Assembly (NCBI GenBank): GCA_036273715.1 | Contig: DASUHB010000037.1 | Location: forward strand, 1-64,000 | Direction of reading: 5' to 3' | Length of the DNA stretch: 64,000 bases | Origin: Gemmatimonadaceae bacterium | GTDB lineage: Bacteria; Gemmatimonadota; Gemmatimonadetes; Gemmatimonadales; Gemmatimonadaceae | Shown here: positions 55,789 to 60,795 of the stretch, one piece after another | Position numbering within the stretch: the first letter of the stretch is position 1 | How the letters are laid out: each line of letters starts with the position of its first letter | The notes under the pieces: model-generated | The model's input: only the letters and a program-made list of their open reading frames with translations | Told to the model about the DNA's origin: nothing | Database searches by the model: none | Program-made: the position numbers and the translations under genes

Positions 55789-56703
55789 CTACTCCTCGAG
55801 CGTCTCGCGCTGGAGACGCCGCACGCGGCGCAGCTCGTACACCCGGCCGACTTCTCCGCCCAGGATGAAAATCACCGCTGCATAATAGACCCACATCACG
55901 ATCACGACGAGGGCCGTCAGCGCGCCCGTGTACAAGCTGCCCGGATTGAACCGCCCAACGTACGACGTGAACAACGCCTTGGCGAGCTCGAACAACGCGC
56001 TCGTCACGATGGCAGCGAGCAGCGCGTATTGCCATCGGATTTTTCGGTTGGGCAGAAACTTGTAAAGAGAAAAGAACAGCAGCACCATGAAGGCCGATGC
56101 GATCACCGAGCCGATCGCGTACTCGAGGCGGCCCATCACGTCCTTCTGCAAGCCGATCCGCTGCAGCACGGCGACGCCGTGCGTCGTCGCGAGCCGCAGA
56201 TAGGCGTTCACCGCCGTGTATGCCACGAAGAGGATCGTGCTCACCACGGTGATCTCGATGTCGAACACCTTCCCGGCGATGATGCTGCGCTCGTGCTCGA
56301 TGTCGAAGACGTCGGCGAGCACGCTGCGCAGCGTGCCGAACAGTCGCGTCGAGAACCACACGAATCCGATCAGACTGTAGATGCCGACCGAGCGCCGTGC
56401 GCGGATCACATCATTGATGATCTTGTAGATTGGCGAGTTGGCATTCTGGCTGTGCGGCGGCAGGAGCTGATCGATGAAGCGCCACAGATTCGCCGCCGAC
56501 TGCGCCTCGGACTGGTTGAGGAGATAGCCGAGTCCCGAGAACAGGAGCAGCACGAACGGGACGGCGGCCAGCAGGATGTTGAACGCAATGCCGCCGGCGA
56601 GGAAGAAGATGTTGTCTTCGCCCGCGTTGTCCCAGATTCGCTTGGCGTAATCCTTCGTTGCCGCCCAAAAACGTCGGGGCAGAGACACCGGCTGGTTGGG
56701 CAT
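55789..56703 (-). CDS. YihY/BrkB family inner membrane protein
   Basis: This encodes 304 residues with six hydrophobic helices. The family landmarks are DNIFFLAGGIAFNILLAAVPFVLLL near residue 30, FIDQLLPP, GFVWFSTRLFGTLRSVL and the C-terminal YTGALTALVVIVMWVYYAAVIFILGGE. YihY/BrkB proteins are conserved but of unknown function (the name RNase BN is historical). An acidic/basic tail follows the last helix. Confidence 0.9.
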   Translation of the reverse strand: MPNQPVSLPRRFWAATKDYAKRIWDNAGEDNIFFLAGGIAFNILLAAVPFVLLLFSGLGYLLNQSEAQSAANLWRFIDQLLPPHSQNANSPIYKIINDVIRARRSVGIYSLIGFVWFSTRLFGTLRSVLADVFDIEHERSIIAGKVFDIEITVVSTILFVAYTAVNAYLRLATTHGVAVLQRIGLQKDVMGRLEYAIGSVIASAFMVLLFFSLYKFLPNRKIRWQYALLAAIVTSALFELAKALFTSYVGRFNPGSLYTGALTALVVIVMWVYYAAVIFILGGEVGRVYELRRVRRLQRETLEE

Positions 56704-56753: not shown

Positions 56754-57245
56754 CTACTCGGACTCCCGGTCGGCCGAGTTCTTCGCGTCTTCGTTAGGCG
56801 AGAGCGTGGATCGCCGCGCGACCCGTGCCTGGCTGGTGGCGGCGCGGTAGTTCGCCTTCGATTGCGCGATGCGCGCCTCGAGGTCCAGCCGCGCCTGCTG
56901 CGCCGCTTCGCGCCCTGCACGGAAGGCTTCCTGTGCCTGGTGCTTGCGAATCTCGAGCGCCTCGCGGGCCGAGTCGAGCCGGTCTTCCACGCTCCGCTTG
57001 GCTTGCTCGTATCGGTCGACGACGTTGTCCGACAGATCGCCTGCCGCATCGCGGGCCAGGTGTGCCGCGCGGCGCGCGCGCCGGCGCAGTTGGCGGCGAG
57101 TCTCTTCGCCGGTCTGCGGCGCGAACAGCAGAGCAACGCCTGCCCCGACCGCGAGCCCGACGAGGAACGACGTCGCGCCGCTGCCGCGGCGTTCGATCAC
57201 GACGTACGGCTCGTCATCGTCTTCGTAGCGCGTCCTGTGCTTCAT
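56754..57245 (-). CDS. YtxH-like membrane-anchored coiled-coil protein
   Basis: The start ATG at 57,245 follows GAGGAC and gives 163 residues. A single helix in FLVGLAVGAGVALLFAPQTGEETRRQL is the YtxH signature, followed by a long Ala/Arg/Gln-rich amphipathic coiled coil (~55-150). YtxH proteins are general-stress associated in Bacillus, but their role is not established. It lies between the NtrC-type regulator and YihY genes on the same strand. Confidence 0.8.
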   Translation of the reverse strand: MKHRTRYEDDDEPYVVIERRGSGATSFLVGLAVGAGVALLFAPQTGEETRRQLRRRARRAAHLARDAAGDLSDNVVDRYEQAKRSVEDRLDSAREALEIRKHQAQEAFRAGREAAQQARLDLEARIAQSKANYRAATSQARVARRSTLSPNEDAKNSADRESE

Positions 57246-57265: not shown

Positions 57266-58732
57266 TCACCGGCGACCTTTCGATTTCTGTCGGACCACGT
57301 CCTTGTCCTTGACGGATCCGAAGCTCTTCACGTTTCGCGCCGCCGCATCGGGCTCGGCGTCGTCTTCCGCCGGGTCCACCAGCGCGGTGAGTTCGGCGCG
57401 AACCTCTCCCGGCGTGGCGCCCAGCATGTGCGCCGTGCGTTCCACGTCGCCTCCGGTCATCGACAACGTCTTGAGCGTAAGTTGTCGCCGTGCATCGGCC
57501 AATGTCGATCCGACAGGAAGCGACACCGCCGCCGGCGCCTCGGTCGAATTGCGCAAATGGCGTGGAACGACATCGGTCAGCCCGATGGTGGCGGCGCGCG
57601 ACATGATGACCGCCCGCTCCACGGCGTTCTTCAGCTCGCGCACGTTCCCCGGCCACTGATACGAGAGAATCCAATCAATGGCGGCGTCATCGAATCCTGT
57701 CACTTTCTTCCCGTTCTGCTGGGAGAACCGCGCCAGAAACTCCGTCGCCAGCAAGCGCAGATCGCCCATCCGTTCCCGTAAAGGAGGCAAATACAGCTCG
57801 ACGACGGCCAACCGGTAGTACAGGTCCTCGCGCAGCTCGCCTGCGGCGAGCGCCTTCTGCAAGTCTCTATTCGTCGCGGCGACGACGCGGATGTCGACAT
57901 CGATTTCTTTCTTCCCGCCCAGTCTCCGCACCTGACGCGACTCGAGCGCACGCAGCAGCTTGACCTGGATGTCGGGCGCCATTTCCGCGACCTCGTCGAG
58001 AAACAACGTGCCCTCGTGCGCCATCTCGAACGCACCCGGCTTTTCGTTGGTCGAGCCGGTGAAGGCGCCCTTCTCATGCCCGAACAACTCGTTCTCGAGA
58101 ATGTCCTTGGGCAGCGCAGCACAGTTCAGGGCGAGGAATGGCCCGCGCGCGCGCTCGCTCTTCTGATGAAGAGCCCGCGCCACCAATTCCTTGCCCGTTC
58201 CCGACTCGCCGAGAATCAGCACGCTTGCCGTCGACGGCGCAACCGCGTCGATGACCTGATAGACGTTGCGCATCGCATCCGACTGGCCGGTCAGTTCACC
58301 ATAGTGCGTGAGTGCCTGCAGCTCAGATGTCAGTGCGCGGTTGGTTTGCTTCACCTGAAATTTCTCGAGCGCCTTCGGGATGAGCGCTTTGAGGCGATTC
58401 AGCTTTTCCGCGGTGAGCGGCTTCTCGATGTAATCGTACGCCCCTTGCCGCATCGCCTGCACCGCGGAGTCGACGGTGGCCTGGCCTGTAATAATGATGC
58501 ATTCGCTTGGGATCTCGCGCGATTGCATTTCCTGGAGCAAGGCAAGTCCGTCGAGTTTAGGCATCTTGAGGTCGGCCAGGATCACGCCGAACGTGCCCGC
58601 GAGCAGGCTCTCGAGCGCCTTCTGTCCATCGGGAGCGACGTCGACCGCATACCCTTCTTCTTCGAGGACGGCACTCAGGCCGGCCGCGATGCTGCGTTCG
58701 TCGTCGGCGATGAGAATCTTGGGCGTATCCAT
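57266..58732 (-). CDS. NtrC-family sigma-54-type response regulator with altered GAFTGA loop
   Basis: This encodes 488 residues: receiver (Asp54 in ADLKMP, Lys104 in IEKPL), AAA+ domain with Walker A GESGTGKE (175-182), Walker B GTLFLDE (241-247) and arginine finger region, and a C-terminal Fis-like helix-turn-helix (~415-455). The sigma-54 contact loop reads GAFTGS (222-227) instead of GAFTGA. A ~35-residue charged tail follows the HTH. Four bases separate it from the truncated kinase gene upstream. No -12/-24 promoter was identified. Confidence 0.9.
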   Translation of the reverse strand: MDTPKILIADDERSIAAGLSAVLEEEGYAVDVAPDGQKALESLLAGTFGVILADLKMPKLDGLALLQEMQSREIPSECIIITGQATVDSAVQAMRQGAYDYIEKPLTAEKLNRLKALIPKALEKFQVKQTNRALTSELQALTHYGELTGQSDAMRNVYQVIDAVAPSTASVLILGESGTGKELVARALHQKSERARGPFLALNCAALPKDILENELFGHEKGAFTGSTNEKPGAFEMAHEGTLFLDEVAEMAPDIQVKLLRALESRQVRRLGGKKEIDVDIRVVAATNRDLQKALAAGELREDLYYRLAVVELYLPPLRERMGDLRLLATEFLARFSQQNGKKVTGFDDAAIDWILSYQWPGNVRELKNAVERAVIMSRAATIGLTDVVPRHLRNSTEAPAAVSLPVGSTLADARRQLTLKTLSMTGGDVERTAHMLGATPGEVRAELTALVDPAEDDAEPDAAARNVKSFGSVKDKDVVRQKSKGRR

Positions 58733-58735
58733 GGC

Positions 58736-59392
58736 TTAGGTTTGCAACTCCTCTCGCCCGGAATCGGCGCGGGGGAAAATGATAGTAACGCCCTCCACTC
58801 CATCGACCACCCGAAGACCTGCTTCGAGCGCAGCGTCTTTCACGCCATCGCTCAGCCGCAGCGCATTCTCTCCAGTCGGCCGCGCATCGCCCGTGCTTCC
58901 TTTCCGAATCACGGTCACTGCGATCTCATCGTCCCGCTCACCGGGTCGTACGCCGCATTCTGCCTCACCCGCGGGGAGCGTCACCATGTCCACTGCCGCT
59001 GCCAGCACGAGTCGAACGGCGTGCGAATCCGCTTTTGTCTCGAGCGGCACATCCGGTGCCGACCAGACCGAGAGCGATCCACCCTCGGCCGCAACGGCCG
59101 CGCCGTACAGGGTAGCGAGCCGCTTGAGCATCTGGTGCAAATCTATCGGCTCACGTGGCGGACGCGCCAACGCAAGCAGCGCCTCGATTCGCTCGGTCAG
59201 CGTCTCGAGCTCGAGGTACGCCGCATCCGCAAATCGCGTGACGCTCGCCGCGTCGACGCCTCGCGCCAGCCTGGCGCGCAGCACCTCGAGGTTGAGGGCG
59301 AGTCCATTCAGCGGATTCTTGAGCTCGTGTGCAGCGTGCTCGGCCAGGCGCTCGAGCGCCGCATGCCAGCGCGCTTCGACGGCGTTGGTTAT
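58736..59392 (-). CDS. Histidine-kinase-like protein with phospho-acceptor helix but degenerate ATPase
   Basis: The frame gives about 218 residues. LAEHAAHELKNPLNGLALNL carries an intact H-box, followed by a second dimerisation helix. The C-terminal part lacks the N-box asparagine (LVLAAAVDMV in its place) and has no DxGxG or GxGLGL motif. No ATG, GTG or TTG precedes the H-box. The best candidate start is ATA at 59,392, overlapping the aldolase TAA and preceded seven bases upstream by GGAGG; a CTG lies 15 codons later. It lacks any sensor domain, so a role as phosphotransfer or docking partner for the NtrC-type regulator downstream is inferred. Confidence 0.6.
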   Translation of the reverse strand: MTNAVEARWHAALERLAEHAAHELKNPLNGLALNLEVLRARLARGVDAASVTRFADAAYLELETLTERIEALLALARPPREPIDLHQMLKRLATLYGAAVAAEGGSLSVWSAPDVPLETKADSHAVRLVLAAAVDMVTLPAGEAECGVRPGERDDEIAVTVIRKGSTGDARPTGENALRLSDGVKDAALEAGLRVVDGVEGVTIIFPRADSGREELQT

Positions 59393-60795
59393 TCGCCCGC
59401 CTCCGCGTCGTCCGGCGCCGCGTGCACGGCGACCGGCGCCCCCGGCGCACGATGCATCGTCGGCGCCTTGACGAAGCGCGCGACCGTGTCCGCCGTGTTC
59501 GACACGCGCAACTGCTCGAACAGAAAGCCGAAGGTCTGGTCGTAGGCCGTGGCGAGCTCCGATTTCACCGACGCCGGCATATCCCAGATGTCCCGCTTGA
59601 ACGGTCCCAACGCCTTCTTGCGCGTTTTGTAATAGAACTGCTCGTCGGAGTCCTTCGGTTTGCGCTCCTCCTTCGCATTCTCGTCCAGCCACGTGTAGAT
59701 CCGGCTCCGTAAGGCATCCGGCATGTGGTCGTAGAGAATGTTCTGGAAGTTCGTGGCAAGATGGATCTCGCAGGCTTCGACGCGCGGGAAGTTGTTGAAC
59801 GCGTTGTCGGGGAGCGTGGACGCGCCGTGTTGCACGGCGCCCGCCATGCCGTAATCCGTTCGCGCAACCTTCGACAGTTCTTCGAGCGCCGGCAGATCCA
59901 GCTTGACCGCCGCGATGGTGCCGTCGGGCAGCACCACGCCGCCGTGCGACGTGCCGGTCTGCACGCTGATCTTCGAGAGACCATCGACAGCCGCACCGCT
60001 CCTCTCTTTGAGCGTGGCGTTGAATCCATCCATGAACGCCCGCAACTCGGGGACGGTGCTGTTGTGCGCGCCGACTTCTCCGATCTCGCCGCCCACCGAG
60101 ATCGTGATACCATCCGGCTGGATCTCGCGAATGTAGCGCGTGATGTCCACGGCCGTTTGATAGTTGAGCCGCTGCTGCTCGTCGAGTGTCGCGAGCGAGA
60201 CGTCGACTAACGTCGATGTGTCGACGTCGATGTTGAAAAAGCCGGACGCGATCGCTTCCTGTGCCAACTGCTTGACGGCCGCGACTTCGCCCCGCCGGTC
60301 GACGGCAAACTTCTTGGCGTTCACCTGGAAGTGATCGCCCTGCACGAACAGAGGCCCGCGGAATCCTTCGCGCAGCGCCGCGGCCAGCATGACCGCGACG
60401 TACTCGCGCGGGCGTTGGTCCGTGTAGGCAATTTCGGAGCGAGCGATCTCGACGACGAACGCGCCCGCTTTCTGCTTGACGGCAGTGCGAAACACGGCGC
60501 GTGCGGTGTCGTACGCCATGCCGCGAACGTTGATGGCCGGCACGGTGAATCCGTGCGTCTTGCCCTCGCCGCGCGCGAGATAAAAATCGTGGATGCTCGA
60601 CGGACGCACGCCGGCGGCCTGGCCGATCTCCCACAGCAGCCACTGGGCGTGATCTTTCGTTTGTCCCTGCCCGAACACCGCCTCCCGTACCAGCTCGTCC
60701 ATCGCTTCTGTTTGGAGCACGGCCTCGTTCACGAGCGTCACTCGACCGTGTTCGACCTTGACGTCATTGCCGAACTGATGCACCCAGCCCCCCAA
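59389..60795 (-). CDS. Class II fructose-bisphosphate-aldolase-like protein
   Basis: This encodes 468 residues of the class II aldolase fold: FTVPAINVRGMAYDTARAVF, FVQGDHFQVN (metal His), IDVDTSTLVDVSL, GGEIGEVGAHNST and VQTGTSHGGVVLPDGTIA (phosphate loop and catalytic His). It is longer than usual FbaA (~350) by an N-terminal lead and a C-terminal ~100-residue extension. It may act on fructose-1,6-bisphosphate in glycolysis or on a related ketose bisphosphate such as tagatose. Its TAA overlaps the next gene. Pyruvate kinase is encoded nearby upstream. Confidence 0.85.
   Translation of the reverse strand: MGGWVHQFGNDVKVEHGRVTLVNEAVLQTEAMDELVREAVFGQGQTKDHAQWLLWEIGQAAGVRPSSIHDFYLARGEGKTHGFTVPAINVRGMAYDTARAVFRTAVKQKAGAFVVEIARSEIAYTDQRPREYVAVMLAAALREGFRGPLFVQGDHFQVNAKKFAVDRRGEVAAVKQLAQEAIASGFFNIDVDTSTLVDVSLATLDEQQRLNYQTAVDITRYIREIQPDGITISVGGEIGEVGAHNSTVPELRAFMDGFNATLKERSGAAVDGLSKISVQTGTSHGGVVLPDGTIAAVKLDLPALEELSKVARTDYGMAGAVQHGASTLPDNAFNNFPRVEACEIHLATNFQNILYDHMPDALRSRIYTWLDENAKEERKPKDSDEQFYYKTRKKALGPFKRDIWDMPASVKSELATAYDQTFGFLFEQLRVSNTADTVARFVKAPTMHRAPGAPVAVHAAPDDAEAGE

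Follow-up and report, generated by a model that had tools for sequence, protein, structure and literature searches.

The analysed window, 64,000 nucleotides of a Gemmatimonadaceae genome, encodes immediately upstream of an NtrC-type regulator a small kinase-like protein (X) that, judging from its sequence and that of its relatives, is probably a descendant of the regulator's own cognate kinase, now acting as a dimeric histidine phosphotransferase of the DHp type. A phosphorelay step would be the simplest account of X, and the preliminary description of this DNA, which had suggested that X might be a scaffold for phosphotransfer with another kinase serving it, appears to have been on the right track: an invariant His, an intact NtrC receiver, forms of X reduced to the DHp hairpin and an in-frame fusion to the regulator all seem to favour this idea. 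X would be unable to use ATP; its His22 would be phosphorylated from another source, most likely a single-domain receiver or a hybrid kinase's receiver, and would hand the phosphoryl group to the receiver aspartate of NtrC, and the reverse flow, draining NtrC~P, would also be possible. Translation of X would be coupled to the stop of the upstream aldolase-type gene, in this genus from an ATA with a strong Shine-Dalgarno sequence, and such a start would hold X scarce relative to its neighbours.

Table 1. Features of the X locus in the window
Feature	Position	Strand	Remarks
YihY/BrkB-like membrane protein gene (presumed)	55789..56703	-	
YtxH-like gene (presumed)	56754..57245	-	20 nt after the NtrC-type gene
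NtrC-type regulator	57266..58732	-	receiver and AAA+ sigma-54 interaction domain
X, ATPase-less DHp/CA-like protein	58736..59392	-	218 aa; putative ATA start, TAA stop
CA-like domain of X	58739..59158	-	residues 79-218; Bergerat fold without N-box, G1 and G2
HisKA/DHp helical hairpin of X	59159..59392	-	residues 1-78; Pfam HisKA 13-78; helices 4-43 and 48-76
Codon of invariant His22 of X	59327..59329	-	kept in 68/68 family loci
Class II aldolase-type gene	59389..60795	-	upstream of X, 4-nt overlap; start is a mechanical ORF start
Putative ATA start codon of X	59390..59392	-	overlaps aldolase TAA (59391-59389); 6/6 genus genomes
Shine-Dalgarno-like GGAGG	59400..59404	-	7 nt upstream of ATA, within the aldolase gene

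Domain content and predicted fold of X

X is encoded on the minus strand (the preliminary description gave no strand) and does directly precede the regulator gene as described there, the reported gap of four bases having to be corrected to three (GCC, between the TAA of X and the regulator's ATG at 58732). Residues 13-78 matched HisKA (PF00512) with 36.1 bits against a Pfam cut-off of 26.9, and no HATPase family in Pfam matched X at E ≤ 1. The H-box (AHELKNPLNG, with H22 as the phospho-acceptor) is intact, as first reported, and the claimed absence of the N-box asparagine and of the DxGxG and GLGL motifs was confirmed by alignment to intact orthologues, against which the asparagine, D-x-G-x-G and G-x-G-L are all missing from X. 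The HATPase_c domain with N-box, G1 and G2 by which a histidine kinase (autokinase) is recognised is not present. An HPTransfase domain (PF10090) was likewise not detected in X at E ≤ 1 or among 39 homologues at E ≤ 0.1, and in four of ten proteins from two other families of the same class (f5 and f8, discussed below) this domain matched below threshold, the best being L205 with 21.4 against 22.9 bits.

In an AlphaFold2 model based on an alignment of 39 sequences (mean pLDDT 91.3), X is predicted to form a hairpin of two helices and, after it, an alpha/beta domain, with no further domain beyond the hairpin and this CA-like part. The latter resembled histidine kinase catalytic domains, the best match being to VanSA (Z 14.0, 2.3 Å over 117 residues), and the other matches included ThkA (Z 13.8) and NRII (1r62, Z 12.8) as well as structures of DivL and RetS. 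The ChpT structures 4fmt and 4fpp were among the best 50 Foldseek matches (TM 0.44 by query length), and in both the Foldseek and the Z-score comparison ChpT ranked no higher than ordinary kinases. The predicted structure has the DHp hairpin and atypical Bergerat fold of a ChpT-type protein; a fold that X would share with kinases and ChpT is no evidence of function.

The locus and the loss of the ATPase motifs

The regulator looks built for phosphorylation and transcription activation, and it adjoins an X that is not equipped to produce the phosphate. The acid pair, Asp and Lys of the NtrC receiver were invariant in the 58 NtrC proteins examined, GAFTG was present in 58 of 58, and sigma-54 is encoded in the genome. 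The full sigma-54 contact motif (GAFTGS at 58052-58069) ends in S in 37 of these 58 proteins and in A in the other 21. A search with a sigma-54 promoter pattern yielded a single distant match, at chance level. Downstream of the regulator lie two genes that, judging from their sequence, we take to be YtxH-like and YihY/BrkB-like, and both follow NtrC in many loci of three families, where the DNA reaches. The YtxH-like gene was found at 9/9 f5 and 6/11 f8 loci, and the YihY-like gene at 8/9 f5 loci and at 5/11 or fewer f8 loci, where locus ends cut in; the two could belong to the operon or be among its targets. A match to the aldolase lies upstream at five of the eleven f8 loci. Literature searches listed no paper on this locus.

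No ATPase gene adjoins X at the locus, and the whole genome contains 61 HATPase_c and 71 receiver matches, too many to single out a phosphate donor. Those 61 would provide many candidates for a split kinase, in which a separate kinase would use its ATPase domain to phosphorylate the His of X directly, in a heterodimer or in trans; against this stand the lack of an ATPase gene beside X and of any partner that could be singled out, and we consider such an arrangement very improbable.

NtrC orthologues (64-100% identical, E ≤ 1e-150) were identified in 67 of 179 genomes of the family, representing 18 of its 35 genera. In the other 17 genera of the family (f1) this threshold revealed no NtrC orthologue, and genome G026 gave no match at the thresholds used. 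The 68 X loci comprise those of 66 of the 67 NtrC genomes (the remaining one starts at a contig end) and two further loci, and the order aldolase-X-NtrC holds at all 66 family loci showing both neighbours. All 68 have the H-box His; X was recognised by an H-box pattern containing this residue, so that an X without it would have appeared as a pattern miss; none did, and the eight pattern-negative loci, read by eye, all have the His. Position H+1 is E at 46 of the 68 loci, D at 20, Q at one (L112) and A at one (L128), the last two, not being acidic, counting against the transfer model, while H+4 is N at 48 loci, D at 10, G at 9 and S at one.

N at H+4 is part of the HisKA phosphatase motif, and H+4 is needed for phosphatase activity. 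X could be a phosphatase only, its DHp dimer dephosphorylating an NtrC that is phosphorylated by another kinase or by acetyl phosphate, and a bifunctional kinase minus its ATPase could keep such an activity. This fits the members with H-(E/D)-x-x-N (47 of 68 family loci) or HExxN (27 of 27 f5/f8 loci) equally well, but in the 20 of 68 family members with D, G or S at H+4 the His is kept, and there the invariant His with an altered H+4 would favour transfer over pure dephosphorylation, either being possible elsewhere. Furthermore PhyT, a protein once taken for a phosphatase, had no such activity in vitro according to the passages on it in PMC5898713. Based on these points we regard an exclusively phosphatase role as unlikely.

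Of the 67 family proteins open to assessment (L135, cut by a contig end, was omitted), none had intact ATPase motifs. In the 39 long forms of X the N-box, G1 and G2 are absent as aligned, and HATPase_c was detected in 0/39 at E ≤ 0.1, a level at which HisKA was detected in 36 of the 39; for the 28 shorter forms, one of which (L024) was scanned with Pfam, alignment shows the ATPase region to be mostly or wholly gone. The shortest forms, in three genomes of one genus (L024, L127 and L134), have 92-96 residues, little more than the DHp hairpin, and a total of four genera lack most or all of the CA part. A model of a short form, that of L093 aligned to 27 relatives (mean pLDDT 79.7), predicts the hairpin and a small beta-beta-alpha-beta-beta remnant. 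In another genus, X has no stop and continues in frame into NtrC in the three genomes holding the locus (L029, L116 and L121). The product there is a single DHp-receiver-AAA+ protein. L010 was also flagged as a fusion by a script; its X shares only an overlap, in a different frame, with the start of NtrC, and it was not counted.

The dN/dS values of X (0.12-0.26 for six pairs among four close genomes of the genus) indicate purifying selection. For the CA-like part they were 0.10-0.17 in the same genus, and for the DHp part 0.09-0.14 in five pairs and 0.55 in the closest pair, which has few changes. Being under purifying selection, the CA-like part has a role, one that the phosphotransfer model leaves unspecified; in this genus the remnant is perhaps constrained for partner recognition, and to judge by the fusion and the DHp-only forms it may be dispensable in some members. 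DivL and RetS are pseudokinases that work by binding, and X might do likewise, sensing NtrC~P or tuning a partner kinase while carrying no phosphate. Such a role would agree with a CA-like fold that is kept and selected in the genus and that has DivL and RetS structures among its matches, yet the His is kept at 95/95 loci examined and the four genera mentioned do without most or all of the CA part, and we rate it as improbable. That X is the functionless remnant of a dead kinase, or an annotation artefact, is hardly credible: its length varies from 92 to 260 residues and its start is non-canonical in one genus, but the low dN/dS, the invariant His, the gene order kept at 66 of 66 loci and the open frames in diverged sequence all speak for a working gene.

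Families f5 and f8 carry the same locus. X was found there by H-box patterns, with 20 loci aligned and seven (L207-L213) read by eye (L170 and L186 are identical in sequence and were counted once), and the H-box is HExxNP at all 27 readable loci. The N-box, DTGPG and GLGL are intact in two of these 27 proteins, L187 and L188, both from f5, and among ten f5/f8 proteins scanned HATPase_c scored above its cut-off in the same two, with weak matches below the cut-off in two others. The preliminary description had called for an alignment of orthologues, normal starts and complete ATPase domains in which would point to sequencing error or local decay; with complete motifs in only these two proteins and in no family protein, neither explains the missing motifs.

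The NtrC tree covers 20 of the 27 f5/f8 loci, and L167, L174 and L175 were left out of it. L187 and L188 fall within f5 there and share a starred group with relatives that are degenerate. Unordered parsimony on this tree gives two changes of ATPase state; if regain of three motifs is disallowed there are four losses, one in the family of the window, one in f8 and two in f5, and this number holds even where the two intact proteins form one group, as they did in 55% of 200 bootstrap trees. The count assumes a shared history of X and NtrC, which the conserved gene order supports. Upstream of the distant NtrC matches L215-L219 the H-box pattern revealed no X-like gene (L215 has only 476 bases upstream), and L214 was too short.

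The putative ATA start codon of X

The preliminary description had X possibly starting at an ATA that overlaps the aldolase TAA, with GGAGG seven bases before it and no ATG, GTG or TTG between the aldolase stop and the H-box. This anatomy is as described, with GGAGG at 59404-59400, and in all six genomes of the genus examined an ATA overlaps the aldolase stop (TAA or TAG), with no ATG, GTG or TTG in frame from there to the His, the other five X proteins being 40-94% identical to that of the window. The ATA is dictated by the aldolase end GAA-TAA/TAG, and its conservation is therefore no independent proof of its use. The stronger case for an ATA start would be the absence of alternatives, above all in L010, where the start must be non-canonical because an in-frame TGA lies six codons upstream of the ATA and no canonical codon lies between the ATA and the His.

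In the window the frame of X stays open over a long stretch upstream and contains a GTG at 60643, and L011 begins at a contig end, so that the sequence before the overlap is absent. A start inside the aldolase gene is out for L010 by virtue of its TGA; in L001 and its close relatives, whose frames extend without a stop for 111 to 479 codons ahead of the His, such a start could still apply. A frameshift fusion to the aldolase appears unlikely, as no slippery heptamer was seen by eye and the possible normal starts in other genera are against it, and we rejected a start at a CTG six codons before the His, which would cut helix 1. A sequencing error behind the ATA is disfavoured by the agreement of six genomes out of six.

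Outside the genus, possible normal starts, i.e., an in-frame ATG, GTG or TTG close to the aldolase stop or ahead of the His, were present at 60 of 62 loci, which makes the ATA a trait of this genus. The loss of the ATPase motifs is old and widespread, and the ATA is confined, among the possible starts, to one genus. At L018 X is present with a TTG at the overlap, and at L020 the in-frame canonical codon is only five codons before the His. No good canonical start of X was seen in three single genomes outside the genus, L118, L123 and L020. These have GTT, no start and CTG, respectively, at the expected position, which may be other non-canonical starts or draft errors.

In two genomes of a related genus (L086 and L087) there is an ATG at the same spot, in an ATGA overlap with the aldolase TGA, and a single G>A change (TGA/ATG to TAA/ATA) could have given the new stop and the new start together. 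The genus with the ATA, that of L086 and L087 and two more genera make up one starred group in the aldolase tree. Several findings go against a simple ATG-to-ATA step: in g46, the nearest genus in that tree (SH-aLRT 89), the TGA is present with the frame of X shifted, so that X must start downstream (at GTG or ATG in three, with nothing canonical in L123); L012 and L013 have an ATA at the overlap followed right after by an in-frame GTG; and the TAG of L010 requires one further change beyond G>A.

In the five ATA genomes for which upstream DNA is available there is a Shine-Dalgarno match at spacing 7, GGAGG in four and GAGG in one, whereas elsewhere, with the first canonical codon near the stop taken, uncurated, as the start, the mean match was 2.1 bases for 19 ATG starts and 2.5 bases for 38 GTG starts (L011, with too little DNA, and L123, with no start chosen, are omitted from these counts); the GTG start of L089 likewise has a five-base match. 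In this sample of five related genomes the strong match fits a possible compensation for a weak start. According to the passages of PMC13009471 drawn on here, S. aureus AUA starts with an extended Shine-Dalgarno sequence work at about 10% of AUG, and up to 30% for ccpN, and in infC, ccpN and citZ, two of the three lying before a regulatory gene, AUA is likewise combined with a strong Shine-Dalgarno sequence; unlike these, the AUA of X, as proposed from its sequence, overlaps an upstream stop. Another non-canonical start, the GTC of sigR in Streptomyces, is repressed by IF3 in the part of PMC5472188 that concerns it.

Precedents and a proposed route from kinase to phosphotransfer protein

PhyT (formerly PhyP) of Sphingomonas melonis, as portrayed in the relevant passages of PMC5898713, resembles X in being a kinase-derived protein whose ATPase domain is degenerate, in being encoded at its regulator's locus and in using a DHp His, through which it passes phosphate from SdrG to PhyR; the authors suspect that it arose from a kinase whose catalytic domain degenerated, and name Spo0B and ChpT as earlier examples. 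However, PhyT is membrane-anchored, has an HRxxN motif and serves PhyR (same source), whereas X has no extra sensor region, shows HisKA-type HELKN and not HRxxN at its H-box, and adjoins an NtrC-type sigma-54 activator. A dimeric X would be comparable to ChpT of Caulobacter, a helical-hairpin dimer with an atypical Bergerat domain, one that binds no ATP in the account given in parts of PMC3433190. Since PF10090 does not match X, X is by Pfam not in the ChpT family, and a ChpT-like way of working would be our reading of its sequence. The partner of ChpT is CtrA, and its locus is unrelated to that of X. Spo0B of Bacillus is a dimeric His phosphotransferase with a four-helix bundle built from two subunits (sections of PMC3433190 and PMC5898713), which X would parallel. 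HisKA, in contrast, is the sole Pfam match of X. Spo0B also serves another partner, in another phylum. The NtrB/NRII-type kinases share with X the HisKA domain, the NtrC-type partner and, by the match to the NRII catalytic domain noted above, the predicted fold; the ATP-binding motifs are gone from X.

Spo0B, ChpT and PhyT are cited, in the same passages of PMC5898713, as kinases that degenerated to phosphotransferases. We tentatively propose that a Gemmatimonadota kinase-regulator operon, apparently inherited vertically, has repeatedly had its kinase turned into a phosphotransfer module (at least four ATPase losses if these are irreversible), that later stages led from DHp-only forms to a DHp-NtrC fusion, and that in one genus dosage is set by an AUA start that arose together with the upstream stop. 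If the fusion has been read correctly, the regulator there carries its own phosphotransfer domain, covalently. The ATAA start/stop overlap is a candidate natural case in which one substitution alters both where a gene ends and where the following gene begins. As intact, part-degraded, DHp-only and regulator-fused forms occur at one orthologous locus, the route of this conversion, and its repeatability, are directly testable.
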